Positions 16,201 to 55,700 of a DNA stretch of 64,000 bases are shown here, piece after piece. Every line of letters starts with the position of its first letter. The first letter of the stretch is position 1. The stretch lies in NCBI GenBank assembly GCA_029582155.1, contig CM055908.1, forward strand, positions 22,057,103 through 22,121,102, written 5' to 3'. The notes under the pieces were generated by a model. The model was not told the DNA's origin and ran no database searches. It worked only from the letters and a program-made list of their open reading frames with translations. The DNA comes from Panopea generosa. Its lineage: Eukaryota; Mollusca; Bivalvia; Adapedonta; Hiatellidae. The position numbers and the translations under genes were made by a program.

Positions 16201-19200
16201 TACCCTCTTGTGATGTTGGAGCCCCTTCACGGGTTTATCCTACCCTCTCGTGAAGTTGGAGCCCCTTCACGGGTTTATCCTACACTCTCGTGAAGTTGGA
16301 GCCCCTTCACAGGTTTATCCTACCCTCATGTGAAGTTGTAGCCTCTTCACAGGTTTATCCTACCCTCTCGTGAAGTTGGAGCCCCTTCACGGATTTATCC
16401 TACCCTCTCCTGAAGTTTGAGCCCCTTCACGGGTTTATCGTACCCTCTTGTGAAGTTGGAGCCCCTTCATGGGTTTATCCTATCCCCTTGTGATGTTGGA
16501 GCCCCTTCATGGGTTAATCCTACCCTCTTGTGAAGTTGGAGCCCCTTCACGGGTTTATCATACCCTCTTGTGAAGTTGGAGCCACTTCACAGGTTTATCC
16601 TACCCTCTTGTGATGTTGGAGCCCCTTCACGGGTTTATCCTACCCTCTTGTGAGGTTGGAGCCCCTTCACGGGTTTATCCTACCCTCTTGTGACGTTGGA
16701 GCCACTTCACGGGTTTATCCTACCCTCTTGTGAAGTTGGAGCCCCTTCACAGGTTTATCTTACCTTTTTGTGACGTTTAAACCCCTTCACAGGTTTATCC
16801 TACCATCCTGTGACTTTAGAACCATTGATAGATTCATCAATACATATATATTGACTCTTATAATCTTGTATTAGGCATGTCAGAAACATGGCCGTCAGTT
16901 CAAAACATTTAGTTGGCTGATTAAAAGGCGATTTACCTCTGGTTTAAAGGGAGTATATTAAAAATAAAAAAAAAGCTATAAATGTCTAAAAAAATAAAAT
17001 TATTTTTAAAATGAACTAGAGCTATCACTGAAGGTGATGAATACCCCTGAATGCCGCCATGACAGAAAATGGTTTACCATTGTATGAAGTTTTATTAAAT
17101 TATATCCAATAGTTTTAAAGTTATGCTCCAGACAAAAAAAAAACTTAATAAAAGAGAATGTTATGGATTGAGTTTTTTGTATTGTTAATTTTTTTTATGG
17201 TTTTGTTAAAATTAAAAACGTTTTTTTTAATTTTTTAATTATTGTGCAGTGTACAAGCTTTCATGGCAATCAATAAATGTTATACTTTTTCGAGTTATGT
17301 TGAGGGACAACAATTTTATGGACAAAAGTTTGACAAGAAACAGTTTGACAAGAAACAATTTTTTTTATCAAAGGGCAATAACTCTGTAATTAGCAAGAAT
17401 AGAGTTATGTTTCTTGTACACTGCACTTCCTCTCATTATATTCTACCATTGTATGAAGTTTGATGAAATTCCATCCAGTACTTTAAAAGTAATGCTCCAG
17501 ACAAGGGAAATATATCAAAGGGCAATAACTCTGTAATTAGCAAGAATAGAGTTATATTTCTTGTACACTGCACTTCCTCTCATTATATTCTACCATTGTA
17601 TGAAGTTTGATGAAATTCCATCCAGTACTTTAAAAGTAATGCTCCGGACGAGGGAAATATATCAAAGGGCAATAACTCTGTAATTAGCAAGAATAGAGTT
17701 ATGTTTCTTGTACACTGCACTTCCTCTCATTATATTCTACCATTGTATGACGTTTGATGAAATTCCATCCAGTACCTTTCAAGTGATGCTCCGGACAAGG
17801 AAAATTGCAACGGACAGACCGACCGACAGACTGACAGACCGACAGACAGACCACAGGGTGACTCCAATATACCCCCTCAAACTTTGTTTGTCGGGGGTAT
17901 AATAAAAAGCATCCCTGATTATCATTAATGAATAAAATTCCAATGGTTTGGTTTGTCAAGTCCACTAAAATGTGCCAAAATTGAATATTTAAATTGGAGT
18001 GGTAAATTTGAAACAAATCCCCATTCTAAAGGTAGACAGCACTTAAATACTGATTGATGACCTTCACATCATAATTTCGTCTCTTTTTAAGATAAACACT
18101 TATAACTACATAATTATAAACATGTGTAATTGATCAAATTGAAATCAAAATCAAATCAAATTACTTATTTATTAAATATGTTACAAAATATGTTGCGTAG
18201 GCCAAGTAAGGAAATCCCTTTTCAACATATTATTTTTGGACATAGGAAATCCCTTTTCAATGTATTATTTTTGGACTAAGGAAATCCCTTTTCAATGTAT
18301 TATTTTTGGACTAAGGAAATCCCTTTTCAACATATTATTTTTGGACTAAGGAAATCCCTTTTCAACATATTATTTTTGGACTAAGGAAACCCCTTTTCAA
18401 TATATTATTTTTGGACTAAGGAAATCCCTTTTCAACATATTATTTTTGTACTAAGGAAATCCCTTTTCAATATACTATTTTTGGACTAAGGAAATCCCTT
18501 TTCAATATATTATTTTTGGACTAAGGAAATCCCTTTTCAACATATTATTTTTGTACTAAGGAAATCCCTTTTCAATATACTATTTTTGGACTAAGGAAAT
18601 CCCTTTTCAATATATTATTTTTGGACTAAGGAAATCCCTTTTCAATATATATCCCGATATATTCCCTTTAAAGTGCCCGAACCATAAATTGCATGTGCTG
18701 GCTATTTATTCAATTTTTAATATCAGTTTACCAACCATTCTTAAAGTTGAACTCAAGAACACATTCTGATACATATATGTATACATTAAACAGCTGTACT
18801 TACTGACAATCAGGGAAAGAAAGAAGAGGCACACTTTAATCTAACAATAAACAATCAAAGCAAGAAGAATGAACACATTCTGATACGTATATGTATACAT
18901 TACACAGCTGTACTTACTGACAATCAGGGACAAAGGGAGGCATAGTTTGATCTAACAACAAACACTCCTCTGCAGCTTCAAGGTTACAAACTTCGTCAAC
19001 ATCTTTAATTAAACAAATCACTTCGTGAAGGTTATTCCCACAATAGTCATTTCCAACAATGCCTTGCACTTTCTGTACATGCTCAGCAATAGCGTAACGC
19101 TGCTCTACGTCACAACTTCGTAGTGTTGTTTTGATGCAATCAAGTGAACGATTCATGTACCTGAAGTTATATTTAAAAAAAACCTCAAAGTTGTGATAAC

Positions 19201-22200
19201 AAGATATCCAGTAAATCATTTACATACATAGACAATATAGTGTGGTATCTTTACTAGTTAATCGTTTACATATATAGACAATATAGTGTGGTATCTTTAC
19301 TAGTTAATCGTTTACATATATAGACAATACAGTGTGGTATCTTTACTAGTAAATCCTTTACATATATAGACAATACAGTGTGGTATCATTACTAGTAAAT
19401 TGTTTACATACATAGACAGTACCGTGTGGTATCTTTACTAGTAAATCGTTTACATACATAGACAATACAGTGTGGTATCATTACTAGTAAACCATTTACA
19501 TACATAGACAATACAGTGTCACATCATTACTAGTAAATCATTTACATACATAGACAATAAAGTGTTGCATCAATACTAGTAAATCATTTACATACATATA
19601 CAATACAGTGTGGTATCATTACTAGTAAACCATTAACATACATAGACAATACAGTGTCGCATCATTACTAGTAAATCATTTACATACATATACAATACAG
19701 TGTGGTATCATTACTAGTAAATCATTTACATACATTGACAATACAGTGTCGCATCATTACTAGTAAATCAATTACATACATAGACAATATAGTGTGGTAT
19801 CATTACTTGTAAATCATTTACATACATAGACAATATAGTGTCGCATCATTACTAGTACATCATTTACATACATAGACAATACAGTGTCGCATCATTACTA
19901 GTAAATCATTTACATACATAGACAATACAGTGTCGCATCAATACTTGTAAATCATTTACATACATAGACAATACAGTGTCGTATAATTACTTATAATCAT
20001 TTACATACATAGACAATATAGTGTCGCATCATTACTAGTAAATCATTTACATACATAGACAATATAGTGTAGCATCATTACTAGTAAATCATTTACATAC
20101 ATAGACAATATAGTGTCGCATCATTACTAGTACATCATTTACATACATAGACAATACAGTGTCGCATCATTACTAGTAAATCATTTACATACATAGACAA
20201 TATAGTGTCACATCATTACTTGTAAATCATTTACATACATAGACAATACAGTGTCGCATCATTACTAGTAAATCATTTACATACATAGACAATACAGTGT
20301 CGCATCAATACTAGTAAATCATTTACATACATAGACAATATAGTGTCGCATCATTACTAGTCAATCATTTACATACATAGACAATATAGTGTGGTATCAT
20401 TACTAGTAAATCATTTACATACATAGACAATACAGTGTCGCATCATTACTAGTTAATCATTTACATACATAGACAATATAGTGTCGCATCATTACTAGTA
20501 AATCATTTACATACATAGACAATATAGTGTCGCATCAATACTAGTAAATCATTTACATACATAGACAATATAGTGTCGTATAATTACTTATAATCATTTA
20601 CATACATAGACAATATAGTGTCGCATCATTACTAGTAAATCATTTACATACATAGACAATACAGTGTCGCATCATTTCGAGTAAATCATTTACATACATA
20701 GACAATACAGTGTCGCATCATTACTAGTAAATCATTTACATACATAGACAATACAGTGTCGCATCAATACTAGTAAATCATTTACATACATAGACAATAT
20801 AGTGTCGTATAATTACTTATAATCATTTACATACATAGACAATATAGTGTCGCATCATTACTAGTAAATCATTTACATACATAGACAATACAGTGTCGCA
20901 TCATTTCGAGTAAATCATTTACATACATAGACAATACAGTGTCGCATCATTACTAGTAAATCATTTACATACATAGACAATACAGTGTCGCATCAATACT
21001 AGTAAATCATTTACATACATAGACAATATAGTGTCGTATAATTACTTATAATCATTTACATACATAGACAATATAGTGTCGCATCATTACTAGTAAATCA
21101 TTTACATACATAGACAATATAGTGTTGCATCATTACTAGTAAATCATTTACATACATAGACAATATAGTGTCGCATCATTACTAGTAAATCATTTACATA
21201 CATAGACAATACAGTGTCACATCATTACTAGTAAATCATTTACATACATAGACAATACAGTGTGGTATCATTACTAGTAAATCATTTACATACATAGACA
21301 ATACAGTGTCGCATCAATACTTGTAAATCATTTACATACATAGACAATATAGTGTCGTATAATTACTTATAATCATTTACATACATAGACAATATAGTGT
21401 CACATCATTACTAGTAAATCATTTACATACATAGACAATATAGTGTCGCATCATTACTAGTAAATCATTTACATACATAGACAATATAGTGTCGCATCAT
21501 TACTAGTAAATCATTTACATACATAGACAATATAGTGTCGCATCATTACTAGTAAATCATTTACATACATAGACAATACAGTGTCGCATCATTACTAGTA
21601 AATCATTTACATACATAGACAATATAGTGTCGTATAATTACTTAAAATCATTTACATACATAGACAATACAGTGTCGCATCATTACTTGTAAATCATTTA
21701 CATACATAGACAATATAGTGTCGTATAATTACTTAAAATCATTTACATACATAGACAATATAGTGTCACATCATTACTAGTAAATCATTTACATACATAG
21801 ACAATATAGTGTTGCATCATTACTAGTAAATCATTTACATACATAGACAATATAGTGTCGCATCATTACTAGTAAATCATTTACATACATAGACAATACA
21901 GTGTCGCATCAATACTTGTAAATCATTTACATACATAGACAATATAGTGTCGTATAATTACTTATAATCATTTACATACATAGACAATATAGTGTCGCAT
22001 CATTACTAGTAAATCATTTACATACATAGACAATATAGTGTTGCATCATTACTAGTAAATCATTTACATACATAGACAATATAGTGTCGCATCATTACTA
22101 GTAAATCATTTACATACATAGACAATACAGTGTCACATCATTACTAGTAAATCATTTACATACATAGACAATACAGTGTGGTATCATTACTAGTAAATCA

Positions 22201-25200
22201 TTTACATACATAGACAATACAGTGTCGCATCAATACTAGTAAATCATTTACATACATAGACAATACAGTGTCGCATCATTACTAGTAAATCATTTACATA
22301 CATAGACAATACAGTGTCGCATCAATACTAGTAAATCATTTACATACATAGACAATACAGTGTCGCATCATTACTAGTAAATCATTTACATACATAGACA
22401 ATACAGTGTCGCATCATTACTAGTAAATCATTTACATACATAGACAATATAGTGTCGCATCATTACTAGTAAATCATTTACATACATAGACAATATAGTG
22501 TCGCATCATTACTAGTAAATCATTTACATACATAGACAATACAGTGTCGCATCAATACTTGTAAATCATTTACATACATAGACAATATAGTGTCGTATAA
22601 TTACTTAAAATCATTTACATACATAGACAATATAGTGTCGCATCATTACTAGTAAATCATTTACATACATAGACAATATAGTGTCGCATCATTACTAGTA
22701 AATCATTTACATACATAGACAATATAGTGTCACATCATTACTAGTAAATCATTTACATACATAGACAATATAGTGTCGCATCATTACTAGTAAATCATTT
22801 ACATACATAGACAATATAGTGTCGTATAATTCATATTTATTATAAAGTTGGAAAAATTGGGCAGAGTATGTCATTTATTTAAGAACAAAATTAAAATAAA
22901 AGGCCTGAACAGCCTGAGGGAAGGCTTGCTACTTGAGCAAATTCATAAATATTATCATCTGGTAAACTGAAAAACCTGTTTTCATCTCCCCTTAAAGGGA
23001 ATTGATCAGGATTTTTCAAAGTTTTCAAATTGGCTAAAACATTTTGTCCAATATATCATGCATATATATAATGCATATACATATTCACTGACCCCATATT
23101 GCCAAAAGGATATCTATTTAAATATGCCAAAATAATATATTGAAAAGGGATTTCCTAACCTGGGCTATATATGCGCCTGGGTTAAAATAGATTTCCCGCT
23201 TAAAATTGCAATATATTTTGTGATGTAATAAACGAGTCATATGGTTACATTTTGATTTCAATATGATCCATTTTACAGGTTTACACGTAGTAAAACTTGT
23301 TTCATCTTAGAAAGAGACCAAATATCGATGTGGAGGTATTCAAGTGCTGCCTATTTTTAGAATGGGGATTTCGTTTCAAGTTTTACACTCCAGTTTGAAT
23401 ATCGATTATGTCACGTTTTGTTGGATTTGACATACCAAACCATTTGGATTCTATGTCTTAATGATAATGAGGTGCTTTTTATCTATTTTAAAAATAATTT
23501 TATTTTGGAAAACATTGATAGCATTTTTTTCTGATATACTCCCTATAAGATACTATACATGTATGTCATATAATTAAGCTGTAAGAAATTCCTGATCTAA
23601 GGGCATTTTTTTTGCTAATTAATTAATCTTTTGCAGAATTTAAAAGAAAATCACCATATGCTCCAATAACATCATCAATATTCATACTAACTTTTATCAA
23701 TGTTGACCGCACTATATTGCACACCATAGTATGAGTGAAAACCAAACATGATAATTTTTACAAACAATAAAACAAATATAATGTTTCTTATCAACAAAAT
23801 AACCAATAAACTGTTTCTTATACACAAGAAAACAAATAAACTGTTTCTTACACACAAAATAACAAATAAAATGTTTCTTATAAACAAGATAACAAATAAA
23901 ATGTTTCTTATAAACAAGATAACAACTATAATGTTTTTATAAACAAGATAACAACTATAATGTTTTTATAAACAAGATAACAAATAAATTGTTTCTTATA
24001 AATAATATAACAACTATAATAATTCTTATAAACAAGATAAGAAATAAACTGTTTTCTATAAACAAGATAACAAATAAAATGTTTCTTATAAACAAGATAA
24101 CAAATAAAAATAATGTTACTTACTATCAACAGTGAAATATATATAAGATACCAAATATAACATAATGAAGAAACTGAATGAAGAATTAAGCTGATACACT
24201 ATATGTTATAGACTACGATGTCACTTAATTAAAACCAAAGTATACCTGCATCCTCCGTCTAAATGGACATTGCCAATAAATGGCATAATACGGTCTGTAC
24301 AATGTTCCCAGTTACAGGCTTCTTCATCATCATCCATCTCTTCTCCAGAGCTTTCCACGTCTTCCGTATCAGGCAGAGGTTGAGCACATACCATATTGGA
24401 AATTGCACCGAAACACATAGTCACTTGTTCAATACGGCCAGTCATCTCTGCTGAACAGTTGGTCTTCATCTCCGTAATGTGTTGTGCTGTTTCCATCATG
24501 TCTCTGTAACAGAAACATTCCAAACCCTCACAAGCACTCATCAAATTACGTTTACGTACATGACACAAGTTTATATGCATATGATTTGCACTGACTTTAC
24601 CCAGGAAGTGAGTAAGTGTTATTAGACAAAAACTATTTGTAGCAACCTTGTGATTTTTCCAGAAAAATAACCGATACTTTAAATTTCAATAAGTTTGTGA
24701 GAATCAGTAGCACCCCTAGTAATCAATGTCAAAACAAATGCTCGCATCAACGAGTTATTTCTCCTACTGGGGGTCACACACGATGCATTACATGGACTAC
24801 TTATCTTTCCACAAAATTGGATCTGACCTCAATTGTCTTTAGATTCCCACACAAAGCCCTCCAAGGCCAAGTGGTCTAAGGTGCCATCTCAAGATCACTT
24901 ACCTCTCACTGCATAGGTCATAGGTTCAAATCCTGCTCACTCCAAAAACTTTATGTGAGAATGTTTGCCAGTTAGTTACTTACGGAAGGACGATGGTTCT
25001 ACTTACATTCATTCTGAGGTCTTCCTCCACCAATAAAGCTGGATCTGCCATATATAACCTGAAATGTTCATTCTGAGGTCTTCCTCCACCAATAAAGCTG
25101 GATATACCATATATAACCTGAAATGTTCATTCTGAGGTCTTCCTCCACCAATAAAGCTGGATCTGCCATATATAACCTGAAATGTTCATTCTGAGGTCTT

Positions 25201-25689
25201 CCTCCACCAATAAAGCTGGATATGCCATATATAACCTGAAATGTTCATTCTGAGGTCTTCCTCCACCAATAAAGCTGGATCTGCCATATATAACCTGAAA
25301 TGTTCATTCTGAGGTCTTCCTCCACCAATAAAGCTGGATATACCATATATAACCTGAAATGTTCATTCTGAGGTCTTCCTCCACCAATAAAGCTGGATAT
25401 ACCATATATAACCTGAAAGGATGGAGCTTTTGTATCTGGGCTATGTTTACGACAATGTCTGACATTCGCAGTGTCAATTAGTTTGTTAATATAATGCACA
25501 CAATACCGTGACTGCAGGAGATTTTGAATCCCATTTGGGACTCTCGGGTTTTCTCTTTGATTCTGGGAGACTCCGAGAGTAGGCCATAATAAATGAATTG
25601 CTAGATTATCATCCCCGCTTGCCCTCTAATTTTCATGCTGCCCCAACCCTTTTTATTTTCATAAAAAATATAAAAAAAAAAACTTAAAA

Positions 25690-28700: not shown

Positions 28701-31700
28701 GCATTCAATAAACAATGTTAGAAAGGAGGATGAAAAGCTTTTATATGATATTTCTAGCCCTGTACTTGTTTCCTCTTGTTAAATATACTTAGTGCTGGCC
28801 GTAAAAATGGCTGGTTTTATTTGAATTTGGTTTGTAAAGGAAATTTAAACACTTTCTTAAAATATGATCTTAGCCCCACCACTCCCCTTCCACCCCTCCC
28901 CCCACACCTCTGTAAACATAATTGCACTGACCTTCTGGTTGAAAGGACAAATTTCTGTATTATTGTTGCAAGTTTCACGGTCATTTGCTTCATTGCAAGC
29001 ATAACATCGCATTTTATCATCCTGTACTTCCACTGAAATAAACAAAAATACATATACAATTATGTCTGACACAATCACCACAACAGTGTACGTGTTACAC
29101 AGAACATGTAGCATACCTCTGACACAATCACCACAGTAGTATACATGTTACACAGAACATGTAGCACTCCTCTGACACCACCACCTATGTCACACAGAGC
29201 ATGTAGCATTCCTCTGACACAATCACCTATGTCACACAGAACACATAGCAGTCCTCTGTCACAATCACCTATGTCACACAGAACACAGCCATAGCAGTCC
29301 TCTGGCACACTAACCTTTGTCACACAGAGCATGTAGCATTCCTCTGACACAATCACCTATGTCACACAGAACATGTAGCATTCCTCTGACACAATCACCT
29401 AGGTCACACAGAACACAGCCATAGCAGTCCTCTGTCACAATCACCTATGTCACACAGAACACAGCCATAGCAGTCCTCTGGCACAATAACCTTTGTCACA
29501 CAGGGCATGTAGCAGTCCTCTGGCACAATAACCTTTGTCACACAGAGCATGTAGCATTCCTCTGACACAATCACCTAGGTCACACAGAACACAGCCATAG
29601 CAGTCCTCTGGCACAATAACCTTTGTCACACAGAGCATGTAGCATTCCTCTGACACAATCACCTATGTCACACAGAACATGTAGCATTCCTCTGACACAA
29701 TCACTTATGTCACACAGAACATGTAGCATTCCTCTAGCACAATCACCTATGTCACACAGAACACATAGCACTCCTCTGACACAACCACCTATGTCACACA
29801 GAACACAGCATTCCTCTGACACAATCACCTATGTCATGCAAAACACATAGCATTCCTGGCACAATCACCTATGTCACACAGAGCATGTAGCATTCCTTTG
29901 ACACAATCACCTATGACACACAGAGCATGTAACATTCCTCTGGCACAATCACCTATGTCACACACAGCATTTAGCATTCCTCTGACACAATCACCTATGT
30001 CACATAGAGCATGTAACATTCCTCTGACACAATCACCTATGTCACACAGAGCATGTAACATTCCTCTGGCACAATCACCTATGTCACACACATGATTTAG
30101 CATTCCTCTGACACAATCACCTATGTCACATAGAGCATGTAACATTTCTAACAAAATCACCTAAGTCACACAGAAAATGTAGCATTCCTCTGACACAATC
30201 ACCTATGTCACACAGAACACATAGCAGTCCTCTGACACAATCACCTATGTCACACAGAACACATAGCACTCCTCTGACACAATCACCTATGTCACACAGA
30301 ACATATAGCATTCCTCTGGCACAATCACCTAAGTCACACAGAACACATAGCACTCCTCTGACACAATCACCTATGTCACACAGAACATATAGCATTCCTC
30401 GGACACAATTACCTATGTCACACAGAGCATGTAACATTACTAACAAAATCACTTAAGTCACACAGAAAATGTAGCATTCCTGTGACACAATCACCTATGT
30501 CACACAGAACACATAGCAGTCCTCTGTCACAATCACCTATGTCACACAGAACACGTAGCACTCCTCTGACACAATCACCTAAGTCACACAGAACACGTAG
30601 CACTCCTCTGGCACAATCACCTATGTCACACAGAACATATAGCATTCCTCTGACACAATTACCTATGTCACACAGAGCATGTAACATTACTAACAAAATC
30701 ACCTAAGTCACACAGAAAATGTAGCATTCCTCTGACACAATCACCTATGTCACACAGAACACGTAGCAGTCCTCTGTCACAATCACCTATGTCACACAGA
30801 ACACATAGCAGTCCTCTGACACAATCACCTATGTCACACATAACACGTAGCACTCCTCTGACACAATCACCTAAGTCACACAGAAAATGTAGCATTCCTC
30901 TGACACAATCACCTATGTCACACAGAACACATAGCAGTCCTCTGACACAATCACCTATGTCACACAGAACACGTAGCATTCCTCTGACACAATCACCTAT
31001 GTCACACAGAACACGTAGCACTCCTCTGACACAATCACCTATTTCACATAGAACAGGTAGCACTCCTCTGACACAATCACCTATGTCACACAGAACACGT
31101 AGCACTCCTCTGACACAATCACCTATGTCACACAGAACACGTAGCACTCCTAACACAATCACCTATGTCACACAGAACACGTAGCACTCCTAACACAATC
31201 ACCCCAACAGTATATACTTCTTATGACAATACACAATTGTGGTGCTAACTTGTTTATCAGAATCCCATTTCACTAACCTTCTTAAATCTTAAGATTTTTG
31301 TATGAACAAAATGTAACACCTAGGAACATGTCACTGGCGCAGCATCTTTGCATATTTTAATAAAAAAATATTATTAACAAGGCTTACGAGACTTTGTAAA
31401 ATGATGTAATTGATATCACTAAATGAATTTCCCGTCTTTTCATCATAACTTCAAAAGTTGAACTAAGAAATTCGTAAACTTATGAATGTTTGTAAAACTT
31501 TGCTACTAAAGACACTTAAATGAAGATCCAATGAAAAAATACAGGTGCTAGAGTGCATTATTCCAAAAACAGATGCCACTTAATTGATATAGCTTTCTGA
31601 TTAATGTTTAAAAATTAAGAAGAATGCAATGATTTGCCTTCATCACATTTTCACAAAGAGAGACTCAACATTTCACCATGAGAGTCTGTATTTCATGCAG

Positions 31701-34700
31701 GGACGAGGCTGGAGCTGTTATACCATATCATGATATTTGTGTATAAGTTAATAACAAAGGATGAATAAGTGTTATATGTAAGAGTCAAGGTCACCTGGAA
31801 TAATTTGATTACTCCAGACAGAATCTCAGAATGAATGCTTGAACACAATCCAGAGGTAGTGAGAGAGATGTGTTGAGGCACACTTATGTTACACAAGGTG
31901 CAACCATTCAGGGCATCATCGGAACATAAACTCAGAATGAATGCTTGAACACAATCCAGAGATAGTGAGAGAGATGTGTTGAGGCACACTTATGTTACAC
32001 AAGGTGCAACCATTCAGGGCATCATCGGAACATAAACTCAGAATGAATGCTTGAACACAATCCAGAGATAGTGAGGGAGGTGTGTTGAGACACACTTATG
32101 TTACACAAGGTGCAACCATTCAGGGCATCATCGGAACATAAACTCAGAATGAATGCTTGAACACAATCCAGAGATAGTGAGAGAGGTGTGTTGAGATACA
32201 CTTATGTTACACAAGGTGCAACCATTCAGGGCATCATCGGAACATAAACTCAGAATGAATGCTTGAACACAATCCAGAGATAGTGAGAGAGGTGTGTTGA
32301 GGCACACTTATGTTACACAAGGTGCAACCATTCAGGGCATCATCGGAACATAAACTCAGAATGAATGCTTGAACACAATCCAGAGATAGTGAGAGAGATG
32401 TGTTGAGGCACACTTATGTTACACAAGGTGCAACCATTCAGGGCATCATCGGAACATAAACTCAGAATGAATGCTTGAACACAATCCAGAGATAGTGAGG
32501 GAGGTGTGTTGAGACACACTTATGTTACACAAGGTGCAACCATTCAGGGCATCATCGGAACATAAACTCAGAATGAATGCTTGAACACAATCCAGAGATA
32601 GTGAGAGAGGTGTGTTGAGGCACACTTATGTTACACAAGGTGCAACCATTCAGGGCATCATCGGAACATAAACTCAGAATGAATGCTTGAACACAATCCA
32701 GAGATAGTGAGAGAGATGTGTTGAGGCACACTTATGTTACACAAGGTGCAACCATTCAGGGCATCATCGGAACATAAACTCAGAATGAATGCTTGAACAC
32801 AATCCAGAGATAGTGAGGGAGGTGTGTTGAGACACACTTATGTTACACAAGGTGCAACCATTCAGGGCATCATCGGAACATAAACTCAGAATGAATGCTT
32901 GAACACAATCCAGAGATAGTGAGAGAGGTGTGTTGAGATACACTTATGTTACACAAGGTGCAACCATTCAGGGCATCATCGGAACATAAACTCAGAATGA
33001 ATGCTTGAACACAATCCAGAGATAGTGAGAGAGGTGTGTTGAGGCACACTTATGTTACACAAGGTGCCACCATTCAGGGCATCATCAGTTGACATAACAG
33101 TAACACACATTTCCGTTCTTTTCTCACAACAGTTTGTTAATGACCATGAAATTAGTTTTTTAACTAGCACATTAGTTCTGAAGTGCTGAAGTGATGTATA
33201 GATTGGATAATCATTTACAGTTTGAAATTATTGGCTGATTCCATACATGACACATTGGGACATATTATTTAGTAATTTCAAATGTTTGATCATACCTGTA
33301 TCATCACAAAGTTCTTCACGTAACTTTTTAGCAGTGGCTACCATGCCCCTAATCGAGGTTTTGTCGTGTAGATTTGTAACCGAGCAGATACACTGATCAA
33401 ACATCTCCATGGACATACACATTTTGTTTGACACGCCATAAGGAATGAAATCATCAGCAAGTGCAGATGTAAATTTATTAATGAATGTTTTAACACAATC
33501 CAAGGAAGATGTGAGATTGGTGTTGAGCAATTGGGGCACACTTATTTCACAGTCATCATTCTGGGTATCATCAGCGATTTTATTTAACATTCTTTGCCGC
33601 TCATCTAACTGCAGGCCATTACATGCAGCAGTAGTGAAGTTGGCCACACAATCCATGTAGTCTTCGATGGTTCTACAAATAAACCATTAAATCAGAAAAA
33701 TTACCACTGTAAAACAATTATCTAAGAAAAATTAATTAAAACAACAATAAAAAATGTTGTTTTTATTATAACAACAATTGTGAAATTCAAATAATTGATG
33801 GAGGGTAAAAATATGACTGCTTTCAGTAGAACATTTTAACAAGGGTATCAGTAGCACCAATGGATGCTCCCTGAACAAGTGCTTGATATAGTAGTTCTAA
33901 AGCTCATTCACATGCTGTTGAAGATATATTCCGAATAAGAGGATTGGGATGGGCTTGGGCAGGTTACCAAGGGCTGGCTCAGCTGAACACGATGTGTAGG
34001 CACGGTTGTATGGGATCCCGGGGGCATGCTCCCCCGGAAATAAATTTCAGCTAGATTGCTGTAGGTGCATTTTGACGTATTTTTCTTATGTTTTAGGGGC
34101 CTAGTTGACCATATATAAATATTAATCTTGAATTCACTGTTTTATAACCAATTAAATGTAATGTTTTATGGTTTGTTCACTTCAATAAAGGGAAAAATGA
34201 AGTAACATAGAGGTAAGACTTTATTGCATTTCTTGTCATTTTTGTGTTTTCGATTTCTCAGAAAAAAGCATGCCTACAGGAAGCTATGCCCCCTGGTTAC
34301 AAAGTTTAAACAGTGTTGTAAATAATGAGATATGAGGGGGATGAGGAGGGGGATCTTCATGGGTATAACAAGTAACAAGAGATATGAGGGGGACGAGGTG
34401 GGGGATCTTCCTGGGTATAACAAATAACAAGAGATATGAGGGGGATGAGGAAGGGATCTTCATGGGTATAACAAGTAACAAGAGATATGAGGGGGATGAG
34501 GAGGGGATCTTCATGGGTATAACAAGTAACAAGAGATATGAGGGGGATGAGGAGGGGGATCTTCATGGGTATAACAAGTAACAAGAGATATGAGGGGGAT
34601 GAGGAGGGGGATCTTCATGGGTATAACAAATAACAAGAGATATGAGGGGAATGAGGAGGGGGATGAGGAGGGGGATCTTCATGGGTATAACAAGTAACAA

Positions 34701-37700
34701 GAGATATGAGGGGGATAAGGAGGGGGATCTTCATGGGTTTAACAAGTAACAAGAGATATGATGGGGATAAGGAGGGGGATCTTTATGGGTATAACAAATA
34801 ACAAGAGATATGAGGGGGATGAGGAGGGGATCTTCAAGTGTATAACAAGTAACAAGAGATATGAGGGGGATGAGGAAGGGATCTTCACGTGTATAACAAG
34901 TAACAAGAGATATGTGGGGGATGAGGAGGGGGATCTTCATGGGTATAACAAATAACAAGAGTTTTGAGTTGGATGAGGAGGGGGATCTTCATAGGTATAA
35001 CAAGTAACAAGATATATGAGGGGGATGAGGAGGGGGATCTTCATGGGTATAACAAATAACAAGAGATATGAGGGGGATGAGGAGGGGGAACTTCATGGGT
35101 ATAACAAGTAACAAGAGATATGAGGGGGATGAGGAGGGGATCTTCACATGTATAACAAGTAATAAGAGATATGAGGGGGACGATGTTGGGGATCTATTTG
35201 GGTACAACAAGTAACAAGAGGCCCAAGTTGCTCACCTGATTTCACTGGCACCTTTTTTTTAAATTTTGAGAATTATCTGTGTTTACATAGTATTCCTAAG
35301 TGAAAACTAAAGTTCCCTTACTAGGCCCCAATGGACAATAGCTTCTTTATTTGAACAAACACCAAACCCTTAATCAATGGGATCATTTATACCAACTATG
35401 AACAAATTTGGCTGAATGGTTCTTGAGAAACAGATTTAAACTTGAAATACCCACACATAGGGGTTATTTATACCAAACATAAACAAATTTGGCAGGTCAG
35501 TTATTAAGAAAAGGGTTTTTAAATGAAAATTCCACTATGCTAAACTGATTAGGTGATACTACATGCAAAATATCAAAGCTCCTGGCCTTGTACTTTTGGG
35601 AGAAGAATATTTTTGAAATTTTGAATGGGGTTTAATGCCATTTTCAATACATTTCAGGTTATATATGGCATATTTAGTTTTACTGGTGGAGGAAGACCTC
35701 AGACTGAGTCAGACTGAGTAGAACTGCCGTCTTTCCGCTAGTAACTGGAAACTTTCTCACAAAGTTTTTGGAGCAAGCAGGACACAAACCTACAACCTTA
35801 ACGGTGAGAGGTAAGTGATCTTGAGACGGCGCCTCAATAGACCACTTGGGCACGTTGGACCCTTGAAATTTTGAGAAAAAAAACCTGATAATACCCTGGG
35901 GCATGTCATGATTTAAACAAATGTGAGAGCTTCATGTAACACTGCTTCACACCAAATTTGGTGAAAATCTGTCAAGCGGTTTCAGAGAAGAAGGCCAACA
36001 CAGGGCAATCAGGATAGCTCACTTGAGCTTTGCTTTACTTTGATACAAAACAAAATTTGAAAATGGGGAGTGGAGGTGATTGGTCTGGTATCTAGGCCGA
36101 AACGGGGTAAGATTAATTAAAATTAATAAAAAAGGGTTGTGGGGTAGGGGAGGGATGAACTCAGGATGGATATTCGGGCTTGTTCAGGTATCAAAGTTGT
36201 TCAAAGGTTTAAACAGGACTGATGCTGATATAGAATATTTAAGTTAATAACAGTATATAACTTACGAGCATTTTTCACTTGCAGGCACTGTTAAATCAAG
36301 AGGACATTCACTCATTATACTCTTCATGGAATAACACTTCATTCCCTCCATCTCTTCCTTCTCATCTTCTTCTTCCATTTCCATCTCTGTATTATTTTCA
36401 CACATCCCCCAGATCTCTTCTCCCATGTATTCATTTTGTCTTATTTCTTCTCTCACCATGGGTAGGTGGCACTTTTCCAAGGCAGCATTCGCTTTCATCT
36501 TAAAATCCGACCGAGCCATTCTGCAATAGGAAAAATAGCAAAGTATCATCAGTCATGCAATATTTTTCTAACACTGTCTATTCTGTTTTGATTCAGAGGC
36601 ATTTTATCCACTCAATTGTTTTTCTTTACAATTTGGAAATAAAAATAAAATTTATCATCAAAGGGTACTCAGAGGTCCCGGATTCGCCATTGAGTTAGTG
36701 GATGAATAACTTGGAATCTTCTGAATATCAAAACTGGTTATCCCATTCATCATTTCTTTACATGATTCATTTGAAGATTTAGATCCAATCTTGACGTTTT
36801 TGTCAGGGCTGAATTAGAAATGTTTCCCCCCATTTTTTTTTTACCCTGACTACAGTATCCATATCCAATTCATTTTTTTATTCTCTGAAACTAAGCTGGT
36901 TTGTTACAGGTACAGTGGGTCCATTTTTTAAAGATTCTAAATTGTGAGTGGCAAATTAATGTCAAAGTTGTGTAAAAATTTGCACACTGAAATAGTTTTA
37001 TAACTTCAGAATGAAAATGACAAAATGAAAACTTAATGCACTGATGATATAGAAGAACTAAATTATACAAATTTTGACAATTAGTTTAAATTTTGTTCTT
37101 TTATTTCGATTGTAAGACATTTTATTACAACTTAAACAAATCACACTTGAAGTCTTCCTGGGTGGAACCAGTACTTAGCATATGCAGAAAGTGTCTTTCT
37201 CAAGGGCACCACACATAGCCGTGGGGGAAGACCGAACACACAGCCCTCTGATTCTGGTTTACTTAGCTATACCACTTGACCACATGATCCACTTGACAAC
37301 TGAACTATTATAACTCAGGGCAGAACGATGACAAACAAAACATAATCATCAAATACAAGATATATAAGAATGGTTAGCTAAATAACTAATACGGACAGGA
37401 AGTTGAAAAACAAATTAATAAAGATGGGGATGGTCATCTAAATAACTGATAAGAAAAATCAATTAATAACATACAGATAAGCATGCCCATGGTCAGATAA
37501 ATAACTCATGGGGACAGTCAGTTAAATAACAGACGGATAAGCATGCCCGTGGTCAGATAATAACTCATGGGGACAGTCAGTTAAATAACAGACTGATAAG
37601 CATGCCCGTGGTCAGATAATAACTCATGGGGACAGTCAGTTAAATAACAGACAGATAGGGATGGTCAGATATATAACTCATGGGGACAGTCAGTTAAATA

Positions 37701-40700
37701 ACAGACAGATAAGCATGGTCAGATAATAACTCATGGGGACAGTCAGTTAAATAACAGACAGATAAGCATGGTCAGATATATAACTCATGGGGACAGTCAG
37801 TTAAATAACAGACAGATAAGCATGCCCGTGGTCAGATAATAATTCATGGGGACAGTCAGTTAAATAACAGACAGATAGGGATGGTCAGATATATAACTCA
37901 TGGGGACAGTCAGTTAAATAACAGACAGATAAGCTAGTCAGATAATAACTCATGGGGACAGTCAGTTAAATAACAGACAGATAAGCATGGTCAGATATAT
38001 AACTCATGGGGACAGTCAGTTAAATAACAGACAGATAAGCATGGTCAGATAAATAACTCATGGGGACAGTCAGTTAAATAACAGACAGATAAGCATGGTC
38101 AGATAAATAACTCATGGGGACAGTCAGTTAAATAACAGACAGATAAGCATGGTCAGATAATAACTCATGACAACAATCAGTTCAATACCAGACAGATAGG
38201 GATGGTCAGATAAATAACTCATGCGGACAGTCAGTTAAATAACAGACAGATAAGCATGGTCAGATAAATAACTCATGGGGACAGTCAGTTAAATAACAGA
38301 CAGATAAGCATGGTCAGATAAATAACTCATGGGGACAGTCAGTTAAATAACAGACAGATAAGCATGGTCAGATATATAACTCATGGGGACAGTCAGTTAA
38401 ATAACAGACAGATAAGCATGGTCAGATATATAACTCATGGGGACAATCAGTTAAATACCAGACAGATAGGGATGGTCAGATAAATAACTCATGTGGACAG
38501 TCAGTTAAATAAGACAGATAAGCATGGTCAGATAAATAACTCATGCGGACAATCACTTAAATAACAGACAGATAAGCATGGTCAGATATATAACTCATGG
38601 GGACATTCATTTAATTACAGACAGATAAGCATGGTCAGATAAATAACTCATGGGGACAATCAGTTAAATAAGACAGATAAGCATGGTCAGATATATAACT
38701 CATGGGGACATTCAGTTAATAACAGACAGATAGGCATGGTCAGATATATAACTCATGGGTACATTCAGTTAATAACAGACAGATAAGCATGGTCAGATAA
38801 ATAACTCATGGGGACAATCAGTTAAATAACAGACAGATATGCATGGTCAGATAAATAACTCATGGGGACAGTCAGTTAAATAACAGACAGATAAGCATGG
38901 TCAGATAAATAACTCATGCGGACAGTCAGTTAAATAAGACAGATAAGCATGGTCAGATAAATAACTCATGGGGACAATCAGTTAAATAAGACAGATAAGC
39001 ATGGTCAGATAAATAACTCATGCGGACAGTCAGTTAAATAACAGACAGATAAGCATGGTCAGATAAATAACTCATGGGGACAATCAGTTAAATAAGACAG
39101 ATAAGCATGGTCAGATATATAACTCATGGGGACATTCAGTTAATAACAGACAGATAGGCATGGTCAGATATATAACCCATGGGGACATTCAGTTAATAAC
39201 AGACAGATAAGCATGGTCAGATAAATAACTCATGGGGACAATCAGTTAAATAACAGACAGATATGCATGGTCAGATAAATAACTCATGGGGACAGTCAGT
39301 TAAATAACAGACAGATAAGCATGGTCAGATAAATAATTCATGGGGACAGTCAGTTAAATAACAGACAGATAAGCATGGTCAGATAAATAACTCATGGGGA
39401 CAATCAGTTAAATAACAGACAGATAAGCATGGTCAGATATATAACTCATGGGGACAATCAGTTTAATAACAGACAGATAAGCATGGTCAGATAAATATCT
39501 CATGGGGATAATCAGTTAAATAACAAACAGATAAGCATGATCAGATATATAACTCATGGGGACATTCAGTTAATAACAGACAGATAAGCATGGTCAGATA
39601 AATAACTCATGGGGACAATCAGTTAAATAACAGACAGATATGCATGGTCAGATAAATAACTCATGGGGACAGTCAGTTAAATAACAGACAGATAAGCATG
39701 GTCAGATAAATAACTCATGGGGACAGTCAGTTAAATAACAGACAGATAAGCATGGTCAGATAAATAACTCATGGGGACAATCAGTTAAATAACAGACAGA
39801 TAAGCATGGTCAGATAAATAACTCATGGGGACAATCAGTTTAATAACAGACAGATAAGCATGGTCAGATAAATATCTCATGGGGATAATCAGTTAAATAA
39901 CAAACAGATAAGCATGATCAGATATATAACTCATGGGGACATTCAGTTAATAACAGACAGATAAGCATGGTCAGATAAATAACTCATGGGGACAATCAGT
40001 TAAATAAGACAGATAAGCATGGTCACATAAATAACTCATGCGGATAATCAGTTAAATAACAAACAGATAAGCATGATCAGATATATAACTCATGGGGACA
40101 TTCAGTTAATAACAGACAGATAAGCATGGTCAGATAAATAACTCATGCGGATAATCAGTTAAATAACAAACAGATAAGCATGATCAGATATATAACTCAT
40201 GGGGACATTCAGTTAATAACAGACAGATAAGCATGGTCAGATAAATAACTCATGGGGACAATCAGTTAAATAAGACAGATAAGCATGGTCACATAAATAA
40301 CTCATGCGGACAATCAGTTAAATAACAGACAGATAAGTATGGTCAGATATATAACTCATGGGGACATTCAGTTAATAACAGACAGATAAGCATGGTCAGA
40401 TAAATAACTCATGGGGCCAGTCAGTTAATAACAGACAAATAAGCATGGTCAGATAAATAACTCATGGGGACAATCAGTTAAATAACAGACAGATAAGCAT
40501 GGTCAGATAAATAACTCATGCGGACAATCAGTTAAATAACAGACAAATAAGCATGGTCAGATATATAACTCATGGGGACATTCAGTTAATAACAGACAGA
40601 TAGGCATGGTCAGATATATAACTCATGGGGACATTCATTTAATAACAGACAGATAAGCATGGTCAGATAAATAACTCATGGGGACAGTCAGTTAAATAAG

Positions 40701-43700
40701 ACAGATAAGCATGGTCAGATAAATAACTCATGCAGATAATCAGTTAAATAACAGACAGTTAAGCATGGTCAGATATATAACTCATAGGGACATTCAGTTA
40801 ATAACAGACAGATAAGCATGGTCAGATAAATAACTCATGGGGACAATCAGTTAAATAACAGACAGATAAGCATGGTCAGATAAATAACTCATGCGGACAA
40901 TCAGTTAAATAACAGACAGATAAGCATAGTCAGATATATAACTCATGGGACATTCAGTTAATAACAGACAGATAAGCATGGTCAGATAAATAACTCATGC
41001 GGACAATCAGTTAAATAACAGACAGATAAGCATGGTCAGATAAATAACTCATGCGGACAATCAGTTAAATAACAGACAGATAAGCATGGCCAGATAAATA
41101 TCTCATGGGGACAGTCAGTTAAATAAGACAGATAAGCATGGTCAGATAAATATCTCATGCAGATAATCAGTTAAATAACAGACAGTTAAGCATGGTCAGA
41201 TATATAACTCATAGGGACATTCAGTTAATAACAGACAGATAAGCATGGTCAGATAAATAACTCATGGGGACAATCAGTTAAATAACAGACAGATAAGCAT
41301 GGTCAGATAAATAACTCATGCGGACAATCAGTTAAATAACAGACAGATAAGCATAGTCAGATATATAACTCATGGGACATTCAGTTAATAACAGACAGAT
41401 AAGCATGGTCAGATAAATAACTCATGGGGACAATCAGTTAAATAAGACAGATAAGCATGGTCACATAAATAACTCATGCGGATAATCAGTTAAATAACAA
41501 ACAGATAAGCATGATCAGATATATAACTCATGGGGACATTCAGTTAATAACAGACAGATAAGCATGGTCAGATAAATAACTCATGCGGATAATCAGTTAA
41601 ATAACAAACAGATAAGCATGATCAGATATATAACTCATGGGGACATTCAGTTAATAACAGACAGATAAGCATGGTCAGATAAATAACTCATGGGGACAAT
41701 CAGTTAAATAAGACAGATAAGCATGGTCACATAAATAACTCATGCGGACAATCAGTTAAATAACAGACAGATAAGTATGGTCAGATATATAACTCATGGG
41801 GACATTCAGTTAATAACAGACAGATAAGCATGGTCAGATAAATAACTCATGGGGCCAGTCAGTTAATAACAGAGAAATAAGCATGGTCAGATAAATAACT
41901 CATGGGGACAATCAGTTAAATAACAGACAGATAAGCATGGTCAGATAAATAACTCATGCGGACAATCAGTTAAATAACAGACAAATAAGCATGGTCAGAT
42001 ATATAACTCATGGGGACATTCAGTTAATAACAGACAGATAAGCATGGTCAGATAAATAACTCATGGGGACAATCAGTTAAATAAGACAGATAAGCATGGT
42101 CAGATATATAACTCATGGGGAAATTCAGTTAATAACAGACAGATAGGCATGGTCAGATATATAACTCATGGGGACATTCATTTAATAACAGACAGATAAG
42201 CATGGTCAGATAAATAACTCATGGGGACAGTCAGTTAAATAAGACAGATAAGCATGGTCAGATAAATAACTCATGCAGATAATCAGTTAAATAACAGACA
42301 GTTAAGCATGGTCAGATATATAACTCATAGGGACATTCAGTTAATAACAGACAGATAAGCATGGTCAGATAAATAACTCATGGGGACAATCAGTTAAATA
42401 ACAGACAGATAAGCATGGTCAGATATTTAACTCATGCGGACAATCAGTTAAATAACAGACAGATAAGCATAGTCAGATATATAACTCATGGGACATTCAG
42501 TTAATAACAGACAGATAAGCATGGTCAGATAAATAACTCATGCGGACAATCAGTTAAATAACAGACAGATAAGCATGGTCAGATAAATAACTCATGCGGA
42601 CAATCAGTTAAATAACAGACAGATAAGCATGGCCAGATAAATATCTCATGGGGACAGTCAGTTAAATAAGACAGATAAGCATGGTCAGATAAATATCTCA
42701 TGCAGATAATCAGTTAAATAACAGACAGTTAAGCATGGTCAGATATATAACTCATAGGGACATTCAGTTAATAACAGACAGATAAGCATGGTCAGATAAA
42801 TAACTCATGGGGACAATCAGTTAAATAACAGACAGATAAGCATGGTCAGATAAATAACTCATGCGGACAATCAGTTAAATAACAGACAGATAAGCATGGT
42901 CAGATAAATATCTCATGGGGACAGTCAGTCAAATAACAGACAGATAAGCATGGTCAGATAAATATCTTATGGGGACAGTCAGTTAATAACAGACAGATAA
43001 GCATGGTCAGATATATAACTCATAGGGACATTCAGTTAATAACAGACAGATAAGCATGGTCAGATAAATAACTCATGGGGACAATCAGTTAAATAACAGA
43101 CAGATAAGCATGGTCAGATAAATAACTCATGCGGACAATCAGTTAAATAACAGACAGATAAGCATGGTCAGATAAATATCTCATGGGGACAGTCAGTCAA
43201 ATAACAGACAGATAAGCATGGTCAGATAAATAACTTATGGGGACAGTCAGTAAAATGCTAAGGGTGAATAGTTTAATAGTAGCTAACAACTTTAAACAGT
43301 GAAATTATATAGAAAAGGACATTCAAAGTAAATGAAGTACAAAAATGTTAAAACTGACCTGCATATGATATGATTGTCATTCAAGATTTTAAGCGTATTG
43401 TTCAAGTGCACGGTAAGTTTGTTGACAGTTTCAATCACATCATCACAGTTTCGCTCCATCTTTGATCCTGAAAAACGAACATGGTCCATATCTGTTTCTG
43501 TTTTCATATATTTGACCTTTTTTCTTTTAAGTACTTCTTCTAATTTTTCTAGAAAAACTTAAATTGCGATTTTGCAAGAACATTTTCCCTAACTTGTTTG
43601 GCAATTGATGTACAATACGAATAACTTTAACAAAGAAAGCACCAACAGATGTCCAGATTATTTTATTTGACGAGGGCTTTAAACATAGACAAGATGACCA

Positions 43701-46700
43701 TGATGGACATATGTGACACCATGGCATAAATCACTTAACATGACGGAAGTGCAGTAAATTTTACTAGATACTTAGCAACATTTTTATGCCATTGAGGGCT
43801 AACAGACAATCAGTTAACTTAACCACTGTTTCCTGGTATATCCTTGAAGGTTAACCTGACAATGTTCTCAGACTCAACTCAAAATTCAAACTCAAACTTT
43901 TCCAGGGTTCATATAAAAACACAAATTAAGTCGCAAACACTTGACATAATCTCGAGTTAGAAATTATTGATGCAGATTTGCGGTAGAAAGTTACAGGTAA
44001 TAATATTTACTTTCTTGTAATAAGTCCATATGTTTTTGTGGTAGAAAGTTACAGGTAATAATATTTACTTTCTTACAATAAGTACATATGTTTTTGAGTT
44101 GATGATGAAATCTTGAGTTGAGCATGCAACCTTGCACCCAGTACTCCTGCACTACCTATCCCCGCAAGTAACTGAAACTTTTCCACTTCAATCACTGTTG
44201 AGAGACGTATGATAATGAGGTTTTGTGATGTATATCAATCATCACAGAGACTGTGGCCTGGCAGGGATTCGAACACACAACCCCTAGATTCATAATCAGA
44301 TGCTATAACAACTGAGCTAATCATGCCTGGCCAGTGAATATTAAGAGCTTATCAAAGATATTAGGAGATAAAACATATATAAATTTTTTTTATGCCGATA
44401 TGACACAAGGTGTCAGTAACTACATCCTTAAGGAGTAAGACCAAAGACTCCTTTACACCTGGGCCAAAATGTTCTCATGATCAATTTACAAAACATGTGA
44501 CATTCATTCTTAGACATGTGTTACCAAACTAACTTAATTTACAAGACATGTGACATTCATTCTTAGACATGTGTTACCAAAGTTATTTAATGCACAAGAC
44601 ATGTGACACTCATTCTTAGACATGTGTTACCAATCTTACTTAATTCACAAGACATGTGACATTCATTCTTAGACATGTGTTATGAAACTTATTTAATCCA
44701 CAAGACATGTGACATTCATTCTTAGACATGTGTTACCAAACTTATCTAATCCACAAGACATGCAACATTCATTCTTAGACATGTGTGATCAAACTTATTT
44801 AATGCACAAGACATGTGACATTCATTCTTAGACATGTGTTACCAAACTTATTTAATCCACAAGACATGCAACATTCATTCTTAGACATGTGTTACTGTTC
44901 TTACTTATTCTAAATAAAATGTGACATTCATTCTTAAACATGTGTTACCAAACCTACTTATTTCTCAAGACATGCGACATTCATTCTTAGACATGTGTTA
45001 CTGTACTTACTTATTCCACAAGACATGCGACATTCATCCATGGATAAGAAGCGGTTCAAATTCCCTCCACAACCAGAGAAATTAAACTTCTTACAATGGT
45101 CAGATTTTGCATCATAATACCACGCTGTTTGGTTTCCAGTACAGTATCCACGAGACATTTCCATATTACAACGCCCCATACCTATTTTTTAAAAAAAAAT
45201 GGTACTGATTAATAAAAGTTTTTATTAATACCTAGCAAGGCTATTCAAGGGGTTCTTAGTCATGATACAGTTGTCATGGAAATGAGCATCTAGTAATATT
45301 AATTGATAAATATCATGAGGGAAATTCAAGCGCAAAAATATGGAAAACATTAAAAAACATCCTTTTATATGGGATTACAAAGGTTATAAAAAACATAAAC
45401 CATGAAGAATTAGAATTAGAAACATGAAATAATTGGAACTATTGTTGTCATGAAACTCATAACACATTATCTCCTTTGTTTACTTTTTACAAGTGATAAC
45501 CACATAATATGTGGAATGTTCCTACACACAGAATATCATGACAAGGTTTTGTTTGGAAACAAATGGCAATGGTTGTGATTTGTGTCTTTTTAGGAATATT
45601 TGGATGTAACTACTTTCAAATCCATCTGATGTTGTGTGGTGTTTAGGGCCTCCTTCAACAATTTTTCAGTCATATCACAACATGTCTACTTGAGACAGTA
45701 TTCTAAAAGCTGACACACTAGACTAACTTTGCTGTGTCAACTTTCTTACTCCGGCACATCATGTGTTATAACAACATTGTTGTGTGAACTTTCTTACTCC
45801 GGCACATCATGTGTTATAGCAACATTGTTGTGTCAACTTTCTTACTCTGGCACATCGTGTGTTATAGCAACATTGTTGTGTCAACTTTCTTACTCCGGCA
45901 CATCATGTGTTATAACAACATTGTTGTGTCAACTTTCTTACTCCGGCACATCTTGTGTTATAGCAACATTGTTGTGTCAACTTTCTTACTTTGGCACATT
46001 ATGTGTTATAGCAACATTGTTGTGTCAACTTTCTTACTTTGGCACATCATGTGTTATAGCAACATTTCTGTGTCAACTTTCTTACTTCGGCACATCATGT
46101 GTTGTAAAAACCTTGTTGTGTCAACTTCTTATTTTAACACAATGTGTGTTATAGCAACATTGCTGTGTCAACTTTCTTACTCCGACACATCATGTGTTAT
46201 AGCAACATTTCTGTGTCAACTTCTTACTTTGGCACATCGTGTGTTATAGCAACATTTCTGTGTCAACTTTCTTACTTCGGCGCATCATTTGTTATAGCAA
46301 CATTTCTGTTTCAACTTTCTAACTTCGACACATCATGTGTTATAGCAACTTTGCTGTGTCAACTTCTTACTTCGGCACATCATGTGTTATAGCAACATTT
46401 CTGTGTCAACTTTCTTACTTCGGCACATCATGTGTTATAGCAACATTGTTGTGTCAACTTCTTACTTCGGCACATCGTGTGTTATAGCAACATTTCTGTG
46501 TCAACTTTCTTACTTCGGCACATCATGTGTTGTTACAACATTGTTGTGTCAACTTCTTATTTTAACACAATGTGTGTTATACTTACAGGACATCCTACAA
46601 TCTTTCTCTGTCTGGAAATTATTGCCTTTCCCATCACATCCCAAGTATTTGTTGCACTGTTCTGATATCATATTATAGGTATAACGAACAACAGTCTCAT

Positions 46701-52700: not shown

Positions 52701-55700
52701 ATTGTGAATTTAAAGAAACAAATAAATGCTTGGAAATTGGGGTATGAATACACTATTTAGAAAGTCTACTTTCATCTCTTGGACGAAACATGACCCCTTC
52801 TTTCCTAATGATATTTTGGCAGTACTGATGTAAACACACTGTAACATGTAAGTTTACCTTCCTTGAATAGTGTCTTTCTATGAATGACAAGTCTTAAAAT
52901 TCACCATAGAAAAAGATAGAAAATCAATGGTGGAATGACACCTCAAGTCAATAGTTTATATACAATGGTGGAATGACACCTCAAGCCAATAGTTTATATA
53001 CAATGGTGGAATGACACCTCAAGCCAATAGTTTATATACAATGGTGGACTGACACCTCAAGTCAATAGTTTATATACAATGGTGGAATGACACCTCAAGT
53101 CAATAGTTTATATACAATGGTGGAATGACACCTCAAGCCAATAGTTTATATACAATGGTGGAATGACACCTCAAGTCAATAGTTTATATACAATGGTGGA
53201 ATGACACCTCAAGCCAATAGTTTATATACAATGGTGGAATGACACCTCAAGCCAATAGTTTATATACAATGGTGGAATGACACCTCAAGTCAATAGTTTA
53301 TATACTTTGAACAGTTTTTGACAGAAGCTGAAACACATTTTTCACTTACAGGCTAATGTAGATTATATCACATATTTCAGATGTAGAAGGACCCCTGAGC
53401 AAAGAATCAATGTGTTATTTATATACAACCAAGGATAGTTTGATTGAAATATTCATGCCAGCATGAATTATAAACAGTTTGTAAAAATCAGAGTGGTTCA
53501 ATATGATTATACTGATGTGCGCCAAACAAGGAAGCCATTTGCAAACTCTGTTAGTGGCCAGTTTTTACATAGACACTGATTTTACATCCTGGTAATATGG
53601 CAATTGCTGTCAATTTTAGTTTTATTTAAACACAATTTTTAATTTTTTTTTAATTTAATACTTAGCTAAGTGTACCTGATGTACCCAAAAACAATATAAG
53701 TCGGAGTCAGTCCAGCAGCATAGTCAGAGTACCATTCAGTCAGAGTCCAGCAACATAGTAGGTGTGACTATCCAACAATACTATTAAGTCAAGGGTCGGG
53801 TAGCAAAGAAGGTGTGACTATCCAACAATACCATTCAGTCAAGGGTCGGGTAGCATAGTAGGTGTGACTATCCAACAATACTATTCAGTCAGAGTCCAGC
53901 AACATAGTAGGTGTGACTATCAAACAATACCATTCAGTCAAGGGTCAGGTAGCATAGTAGGTGTGACTATCCAACAATACCATTCAGTCAGAGTTTTGCA
54001 GCATAGTAGGTGTGACTATCCAACAATACCATTCAGTCAAGGGTCGGGTAGCATAGTAGGTGTGACTATCCAACAATACTATTCAGTCAGAGTCCAGCAA
54101 CATAGTAGGTGTGACTATCAAACAATACCATTCAGTCAAGGGTCAGGTAGCATAGTAGGTGTGACTATCCAACAATACCATTCAGTCAAGGGTCAGGTAG
54201 CATAGTAGGTGTGACTATCCAACAATACCATTCAGTCAAGGGTCAGGTAGCATAGTAGGTGTGACTATCCAACAATACCATTCAGTCAAGGGTCAGGTAG
54301 CATAGTAGGTGTGACTATCCAACAATACCATTCAGTCAAGGGTCAGGTAGCATAGTAGGTGTGACTATCCAACAATACTATTCAGTCAAGGGTCGGGTAG
54401 TATAGTAGGTGTGACTATCCAACAATACTATTCAGTCAGAGTCCAGCAACATAGTAAGTGTGACTATCCAACAATACCATTCAGTCAGAGTTTTGCAGCA
54501 TAGTAGGTGTGACTATCCAACAATACTATTCAGTCAGAGTCGGGCAGCATAGTAGGTGTGACTATCCAACAATACCATTCAATCAAGAGTCAGGCAGCAT
54601 AGGTGTGAATATCCAACAATACCATTCAGTCAGAGTCGGGCAGCATAGGTGTGACTATCCAACAATACCATTCATTCAAGAGTCAGACAGCATAGTTGGT
54701 GTGACTATGTCACAATACCATTCAGTCAGAGTCGGTCAGCATAGTAGGTGTGACTATCCAACAACACTATTCAGTAAGAGTCTGGCAGCATAGATGTGAC
54801 TATCCAACAATACCATTCATTCAAGAGTTGGGCAGCATAGTAGGTGTGACTATCCCACAATACCATTCAGTTAGAGTCGGTCAGCATAGTAAGTGTGACT
54901 ATCCAACAATACTATTCAGTCAGAATCAGGCAGCATAAGTGTGACTATCCAACAATACCATTCATTCATGAGTTGGGCAGCACAGTTAGTGTGACTATCC
55001 AACAATACCATTTAGTCAGAATCAGGCAGCATAGGTGTGACTATCCCACAATACCATTCATTCAAGAGTTGGGCAGCATAGGTGTGACTATCCAACAATA
55101 CCATTCAGTCAGTCGGGCAGCATAGGTGTGACTATCCGACAATACCATTCATTCAAGAGTTGGGCAGCGTAGGTGTGACTATCCCACAATACCATTCAGT
55201 AAGAGTCAGGCAGCATAGGTGTGACTATCCAAAAATACCATTCATTCAAGAGTTGGGCAGCATAGGTGTGACTATCCAACAATACCATTCATTCAAGAGT
55301 TTGGCAGCATAGATGTGACTATCCAACAATACCATTCAGTCAGAGTCAGGCAGCATAGGTGTGACTATCCAACAATACCATTCAGTCAAGAGTTAGGCAG
55401 CATAGGTGTGACTATCCAACAATACCATTCAGTCAGAGTCGGGCAGCATAGGTGTGACTATCCAACAATACCATTCATTCAAGAGTTGGGCAGCATAGGT
55501 GTGACTATCCAACAATACCATTCAGTCAGAGTCGGGCAGCATAGGTGTGACTATCCAACAAAACCATTCAGTACTATTTATTTATTTATCTGCCACCTTT
55601 ATAGTAATGGTCATTCACTTTTTCATTTGTTTATCTTCCTCTTTATAACAAGGCAATTATTATTTTCTTTTAACCTTGTTCTATTTATTTATCCACCATC

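Follow-up and report, generated by a model that had tools for sequence, protein, structure and literature searches.

Tandem arrays that arise from transposable elements are well documented, and Alu- and MITE-derived minisatellites have been summarized in PMC9659126. Genic sequence can also become part of tandem repeats. For human genes in segmental duplications, PMC2812944 describes how gene structure is changed by internal tandem repeats located where exons meet introns, and a minisatellite in human IFI6 is reported to provide several donor sites for splicing (Turri et al. 1995, as cited in PMC4526556). Here, we compare these systems with a 106-bp array in an apparent intron of Panopea generosa, located in a window of 64,000 bases. 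The initial annotation of this window had placed a degraded copy of the middle of its exon 12 at positions 31815 to 33170, just beside that exon, and had proposed that coding sequence turned into an intronic satellite next to its parent.

Structure of the 106-bp array

Tandem Repeats Finder (TRF) delimits the array at positions 31818-33086 and reports a period of 106 bp, 12.0 copies, 97% matches and 0% indels. Read on the minus strand, the unit corresponds to exon sequence, and the true end of the array lies at about 33086-33089. The 12-unit minisatellite of high identity that had been claimed for this locus is thus real. Near-identical copies follow each other head to tail with a unit of tens of bases, as is typical of minisatellites; note that 106 bp just exceeds the unit range of 15-100 bp given in one abstract (PMC3618361).

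When the 12 units are aligned with MAFFT, ten columns prove variable. At four array-internal columns (47, 51, 61 and 62) the units fall into variants, arranged along the array as A A B C D A B D A B C D. This order suggests that three or four units were duplicated at once. At six columns a single end unit stands alone. The last unit (32984-33089, minus strand), which faces the parent exon, carries the exon's base at two of them (95 and 114), at which the remaining 11 units have a different base in common. The first unit alone carries the exon's base at column 9, where the alignment is poor. At column 41 it is the other units that share the exon's base, and at columns 6 and 116 neither state equals that of the exon. 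As only three of the six columns favor the exon base in the end unit, any argument from them about the founder end of the array is slight.

Homology with the adjacent exon and loss of the reading frame

The parent exon, i.e., exon 12 of the initial annotation, is predicted on the minus strand at 33296-33672, within an open frame that extends from 33228 to 33686. It comprises about 125 codons between an acceptor (...TTTGTAG) at 33672 and a donor (GTATGA) at 33296, both of which were judged by eye. The encoded protein matches no Pfam family above the cut-off. Elsewhere in the window, minus-strand open frames encode one WAP and two Kunitz domains above the Pfam cut-off, as well as a Quiver/Ly6-like match below it. 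Provided that these open frames form one gene, it looks like a gene for a secreted multi-domain protein. Pairwise phmmer comparison of eight candidate exons, one of which (28920-29059) is probably in the wrong frame, revealed no convincing kinship. The best pair consisted of the parent exon and the exon at 18917-19160, with an E value of 0.02 for a database of eight.

The unit copies the exon part at 33480-33575 (minus strand) in the same orientation. In local alignments with the parent exon, a consensus-like unit scored 66 and the last unit scored 73, while 2000 dinucleotide shuffles of the exon reached 30 at most. Among 656 segment/strand combinations covering the window outside the array, the two top scores (66 each) belonged to overlapping segments that hold the parent exon itself, and the third was 31. 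As a control, 20 stretches of 10 kb each (200 kb) were taken from other parts of this genome; their 2040 segment/strand combinations scored 29 at most. BLAST against the window yielded 1.7e-6 for the doubled unit and 2e-8 for the exon when matched to the last unit. The unit is homologous to the nearby exon beyond chance, and the objection raised along with the initial annotation, namely that the identity might be no better than expected by chance, fails, since shuffled sequences, the rest of the window and the control all stay at or below 31. The value for the identity shifts with the choice of alignment: for the last unit, 80 of 95 ungapped positions are identical and there are six gaps, while the MAFFT alignment of all 12 units gives 69-73 of 100. 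About 95 bp of the unit are homologous to the exon, while about 11 bp per unit have no clear exon origin. The array ends 210 bp from the near edge of the exon and 394 bp from the aligned exon part.

The exon words CEISVPQ and LDCVKTFI return in the unit as CNISVPQ and LDCVQAFI, just as had been described, and these lie in different frames. All three frames of the doubled last unit contain stops, and a length of 106 bp cannot be divided by 3. Had the encoded protein been under selection, differences would be in excess at third codon positions. The bias seen here is the opposite, with differences at 8 of 31 first, 4 of 32 second and 3 of 32 third positions, counts that comprise only 15 differences altogether. 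The broken frame and the lack of a third-position excess indicate that the copy decayed as non-coding DNA. Within the limits of such small numbers, they would fit a copy that was never a working exon, or not for long. On this reading, the array plays no coding role, and a function appears unlikely. Homology, adjacency, identical orientation, loss of the frame and the structure of the array are shown, and they support the proposal of the initial annotation that coding sequence became an intronic satellite next to its parent.

Extent and source of the copied sequence

Clear coverage of the exon is confined to 33480-33575 and reaches about 33614 at most. On the left flank of the array, the anchored extension to the exon scores 0. 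On the right flank, a weak similarity that possibly continues the exon copy past the last unit extends over about 43 bp (33090-33132, minus strand), with an anchored extension score of 9 that was reached by 26 of 300 shuffles. The coordinates in the initial annotation therefore hold for the array, from 31818 to about 33086-33089, and what lies beyond is this weak similarity to about 33132. A dead duplicate of the entire exon was considered as a candidate and rejected: the homology does not span the exon and its splice sites, the left flank scoring 0 and the right flank being weak. The homology covers about 95 bp, a larger duplication is possible, and a duplication of the whole exon is unsupported.

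A rival to descent from the parent exon is that the unit descends from another gene's exon or from a dispersed repeat that resembles the parent exon. This explanation draws on the fact that dispersed repeats are frequent nearby (31264-31500; 25008-25418 together with 35649-35707). However, a DNA search of the whole genome (1.474 Gb, 39 contigs) with one unit returned just the 12 units of this array, and a search with the exon part returned only the exon itself. The dispersed copies that would mark a satellite as transposon-derived were not found in this search, which detects close relatives only. Neither search found the target of the other, so that a source with the same degree of divergence would escape them as well. 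The unrelated dispersed source named in the initial annotation as counterevidence was thus not found with one unit in a whole-genome search that is blind to sources as diverged as the exon. Greater reach was provided by a more sensitive model that uses sequence only; five units and the exon went into its construction and match it as a matter of course. Over 264 kb (the window and the 200-kb control) and at E≤10, its sole hits were the exon and the 12 units. At E≤1, the exon protein matched only itself in the whole genome. When the unit was compared with 13 candidate exons of the window, an incomplete and purely predicted set with approximate edges, chosen by visual inspection of open frames and domain matches, the parent exon alone matched and the other 12 scored 21 or less. 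Moreover, the one known match lies right beside the array. We thus regard a source other than the adjacent exon as very unlikely.

What remains to be weighed is how much was copied. The whole exon with its flanks may once have been duplicated as a working sister exon that later died, leaving only the amplified 106-bp part. This is a sub-case of local exon duplication and overlaps with the explanation we prefer. It would accommodate the weak similarity of about 43 bp past the array, which points toward the 5' part of the exon, and exon duplication does occur here, as a cysteine-rich exon is present twice in 55158-57698 and 57759-60131. On the other hand, the left extension of 0 and the right flank, which is not significant (26 of 300 shuffles), do not reveal such flanks, and the lack of a third-position excess means that nothing points to a time in which the copy worked as an exon. 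A former sister exon is therefore an unlikely, albeit conceivable, origin.

We consider it very probable that the array goes back to local duplication of a piece of the exon, followed by decay, tandem amplification and later duplication of blocks. Direct descent from the parent exon, the order of events and the mechanism of recombination are what we infer here, and the course would be as follows. A local duplication would have placed an exon piece of at least 95 bp, with its orientation unchanged, in the apparent intron that follows the exon. Released from coding constraint, the intronic copy would have accumulated indels and substitutions. A stretch of 106 bp, made up of about 95 bp of exon-derived sequence and about 11 bp of uncertain origin, would then have been amplified by replication slippage or unequal crossover, and subsequent duplications of three- and four-unit blocks may have brought the array to 12 copies. 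The recurrence of unit variants in blocks of three and four units argues for the last step. Seeding by an exon is supported by a second array at 44488-45037, where the sequence of an exon edge occurs in tandem with the exon still attached.

Other arrays in the window and comparison with known systems

With a period of at least 20 and a TRF score of at least 100 as limits, the window contains 22 arrays that occupy 24,157 of 64,000 bases (38%), and the 20 control stretches contain 47 arrays that occupy 40,673 of 200,000 bases (20%). Very long arrays of the window are 37488-43256 (54 bp x 108) and 19210-22831 (46 bp x 79). For 5 of 22 arrays in the window and 6 of 47 in the control, the unit has a relative that belongs to no array and lies at a distance of more than one period; these figures are not directly comparable because the control stretches are just 10 kb long. 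The array at 25008-25418 (59-bp unit) has a 92% match at 35649-35707, in opposite orientation and 10 kb away; perhaps a dispersed repeat seeded this array. The dispersed repeat at 31264-31500 occurs at 74-83% in at least 39 other places of the genome.

Two of the 22 window arrays stand out when compared with the 13 candidate exons, each with the exon next to it: the 106-bp array with a score of 66 (null maximum 30) and the array at 44488-45037 with a score of 56 (null maximum 25; next best exon 20), which in the latter case is not an independent match because the end of the Kunitz exon lies within the TRF array. Four other arrays lie just above the maximum of 300 shuffles (17366, 31 vs 27; 34327, 28 vs 22; 57759, 24 vs 22; 61683, 22 vs 21). 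We take these slight excesses as noise, since the scores are low and each is the best of 26 comparisons.

The array at 44488-45037 (minus strand; TRF and sequence) has a unit of 53 bp, which combines the last ~27 nt of a Kunitz exon, the sequence GTAAGT as inferred donor and some 20 nt of intron. The terminal exon sequence is ...TGTCGCATGTCTTGTGGAATAA; the inferred donor comes next, and copies of this edge follow immediately behind it. The first unit is the end of the Kunitz exon itself, contiguous with the exon, and in each of nine full units 42-45 of 53 bases are identical to it. As a consequence, a series of donor-like sequences follows the first inferred donor. Note that the census of unit relatives masks one period on either side of an array and thus misses this case, which is caught by the comparison with candidate exons.

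A further array, 45725-46559, begins at most ~30 bp from the donor inferred for the second Kunitz exon. Its unit scores 18 or less against any of the 13 candidate exons and, by eye, resembles the start of its intron, not an exon. The stretches 55158-57698 and 57759-60131 form a diverged local duplication (77-96% by piece), which includes the cysteine-rich exon twice and a common minisatellite unit. This exon appears WAP-like by eye; the one copy that was scanned gave no Pfam match.

The 106-bp array is less singular than first judged, because arrays are routine in this genome and a second array in the window repeats exon sequence. One could go further and propose that exons of such a repeat-rich genome repeatedly seed arrays in their own introns and thereby keep supplying them with copies of coding sequence and splice donors as decoy material. 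Such intronic copies could then feed new exons or shift splicing. The basis for this reading is that 2 of 22 window arrays carry sequence of an adjacent exon, and we hold it to be quite doubtful. Little can be said for a function of the 106-bp array in its intron, e.g., an influence on splicing of the neighboring exon. What speaks for it is indirect: gene structure can be modified by tandem repeats where exon and intron meet, as outlined in PMC2812944, and the Kunitz array repeats donor-like sequence. With arrays filling 38% of the window and 20% of the control, the presence of one means little by itself, and its unit is frame-broken with a length that is not a multiple of 3. A function of this kind is highly improbable.

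How does the locus relate to the systems described before? Like the Alu- and MITE-derived minisatellites covered by the review PMC9659126, it represents a local piece of sequence amplified into a tandem array; there, however, the seed is a transposable element, whereas here it is apparently coding exon sequence. The human boundary repeats, as outlined in PMC2812944, are likewise intragenic minisatellites that take in exon-edge sequence, a description that suits the Kunitz array. Those repeats can enter transcripts, while the 106-bp array is separated from its parent exon, within what looks like an intron, and is known from its DNA sequence. The IFI6 minisatellite, as presented in PMC4526556, resembles 44488-45037 in having tandem units with donor-like sequence, but its repeats supply splice donors, whereas the donors at 44488-45037 are putative ones, read from the DNA only. 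In a limited search of the open-licence literature by title and abstract opening, no intronic array from the interior of an adjacent exon was recognized.

Three points make the case useful. The birth of the array can be read from the sequence, because its likely seed is still adjacent and recognizable by its protein. Intronic minisatellites can carry exon fragments and may thereby mislead gene prediction. Together, the 106-bp and the Kunitz arrays justify a genome-wide count of exon-seeded arrays. The distinguishing point of the 106-bp array is its seed from the interior of an exon, set apart from the parent; otherwise it is of a known kind and looks like a tidy fossil of an ordinary process of repeat birth.
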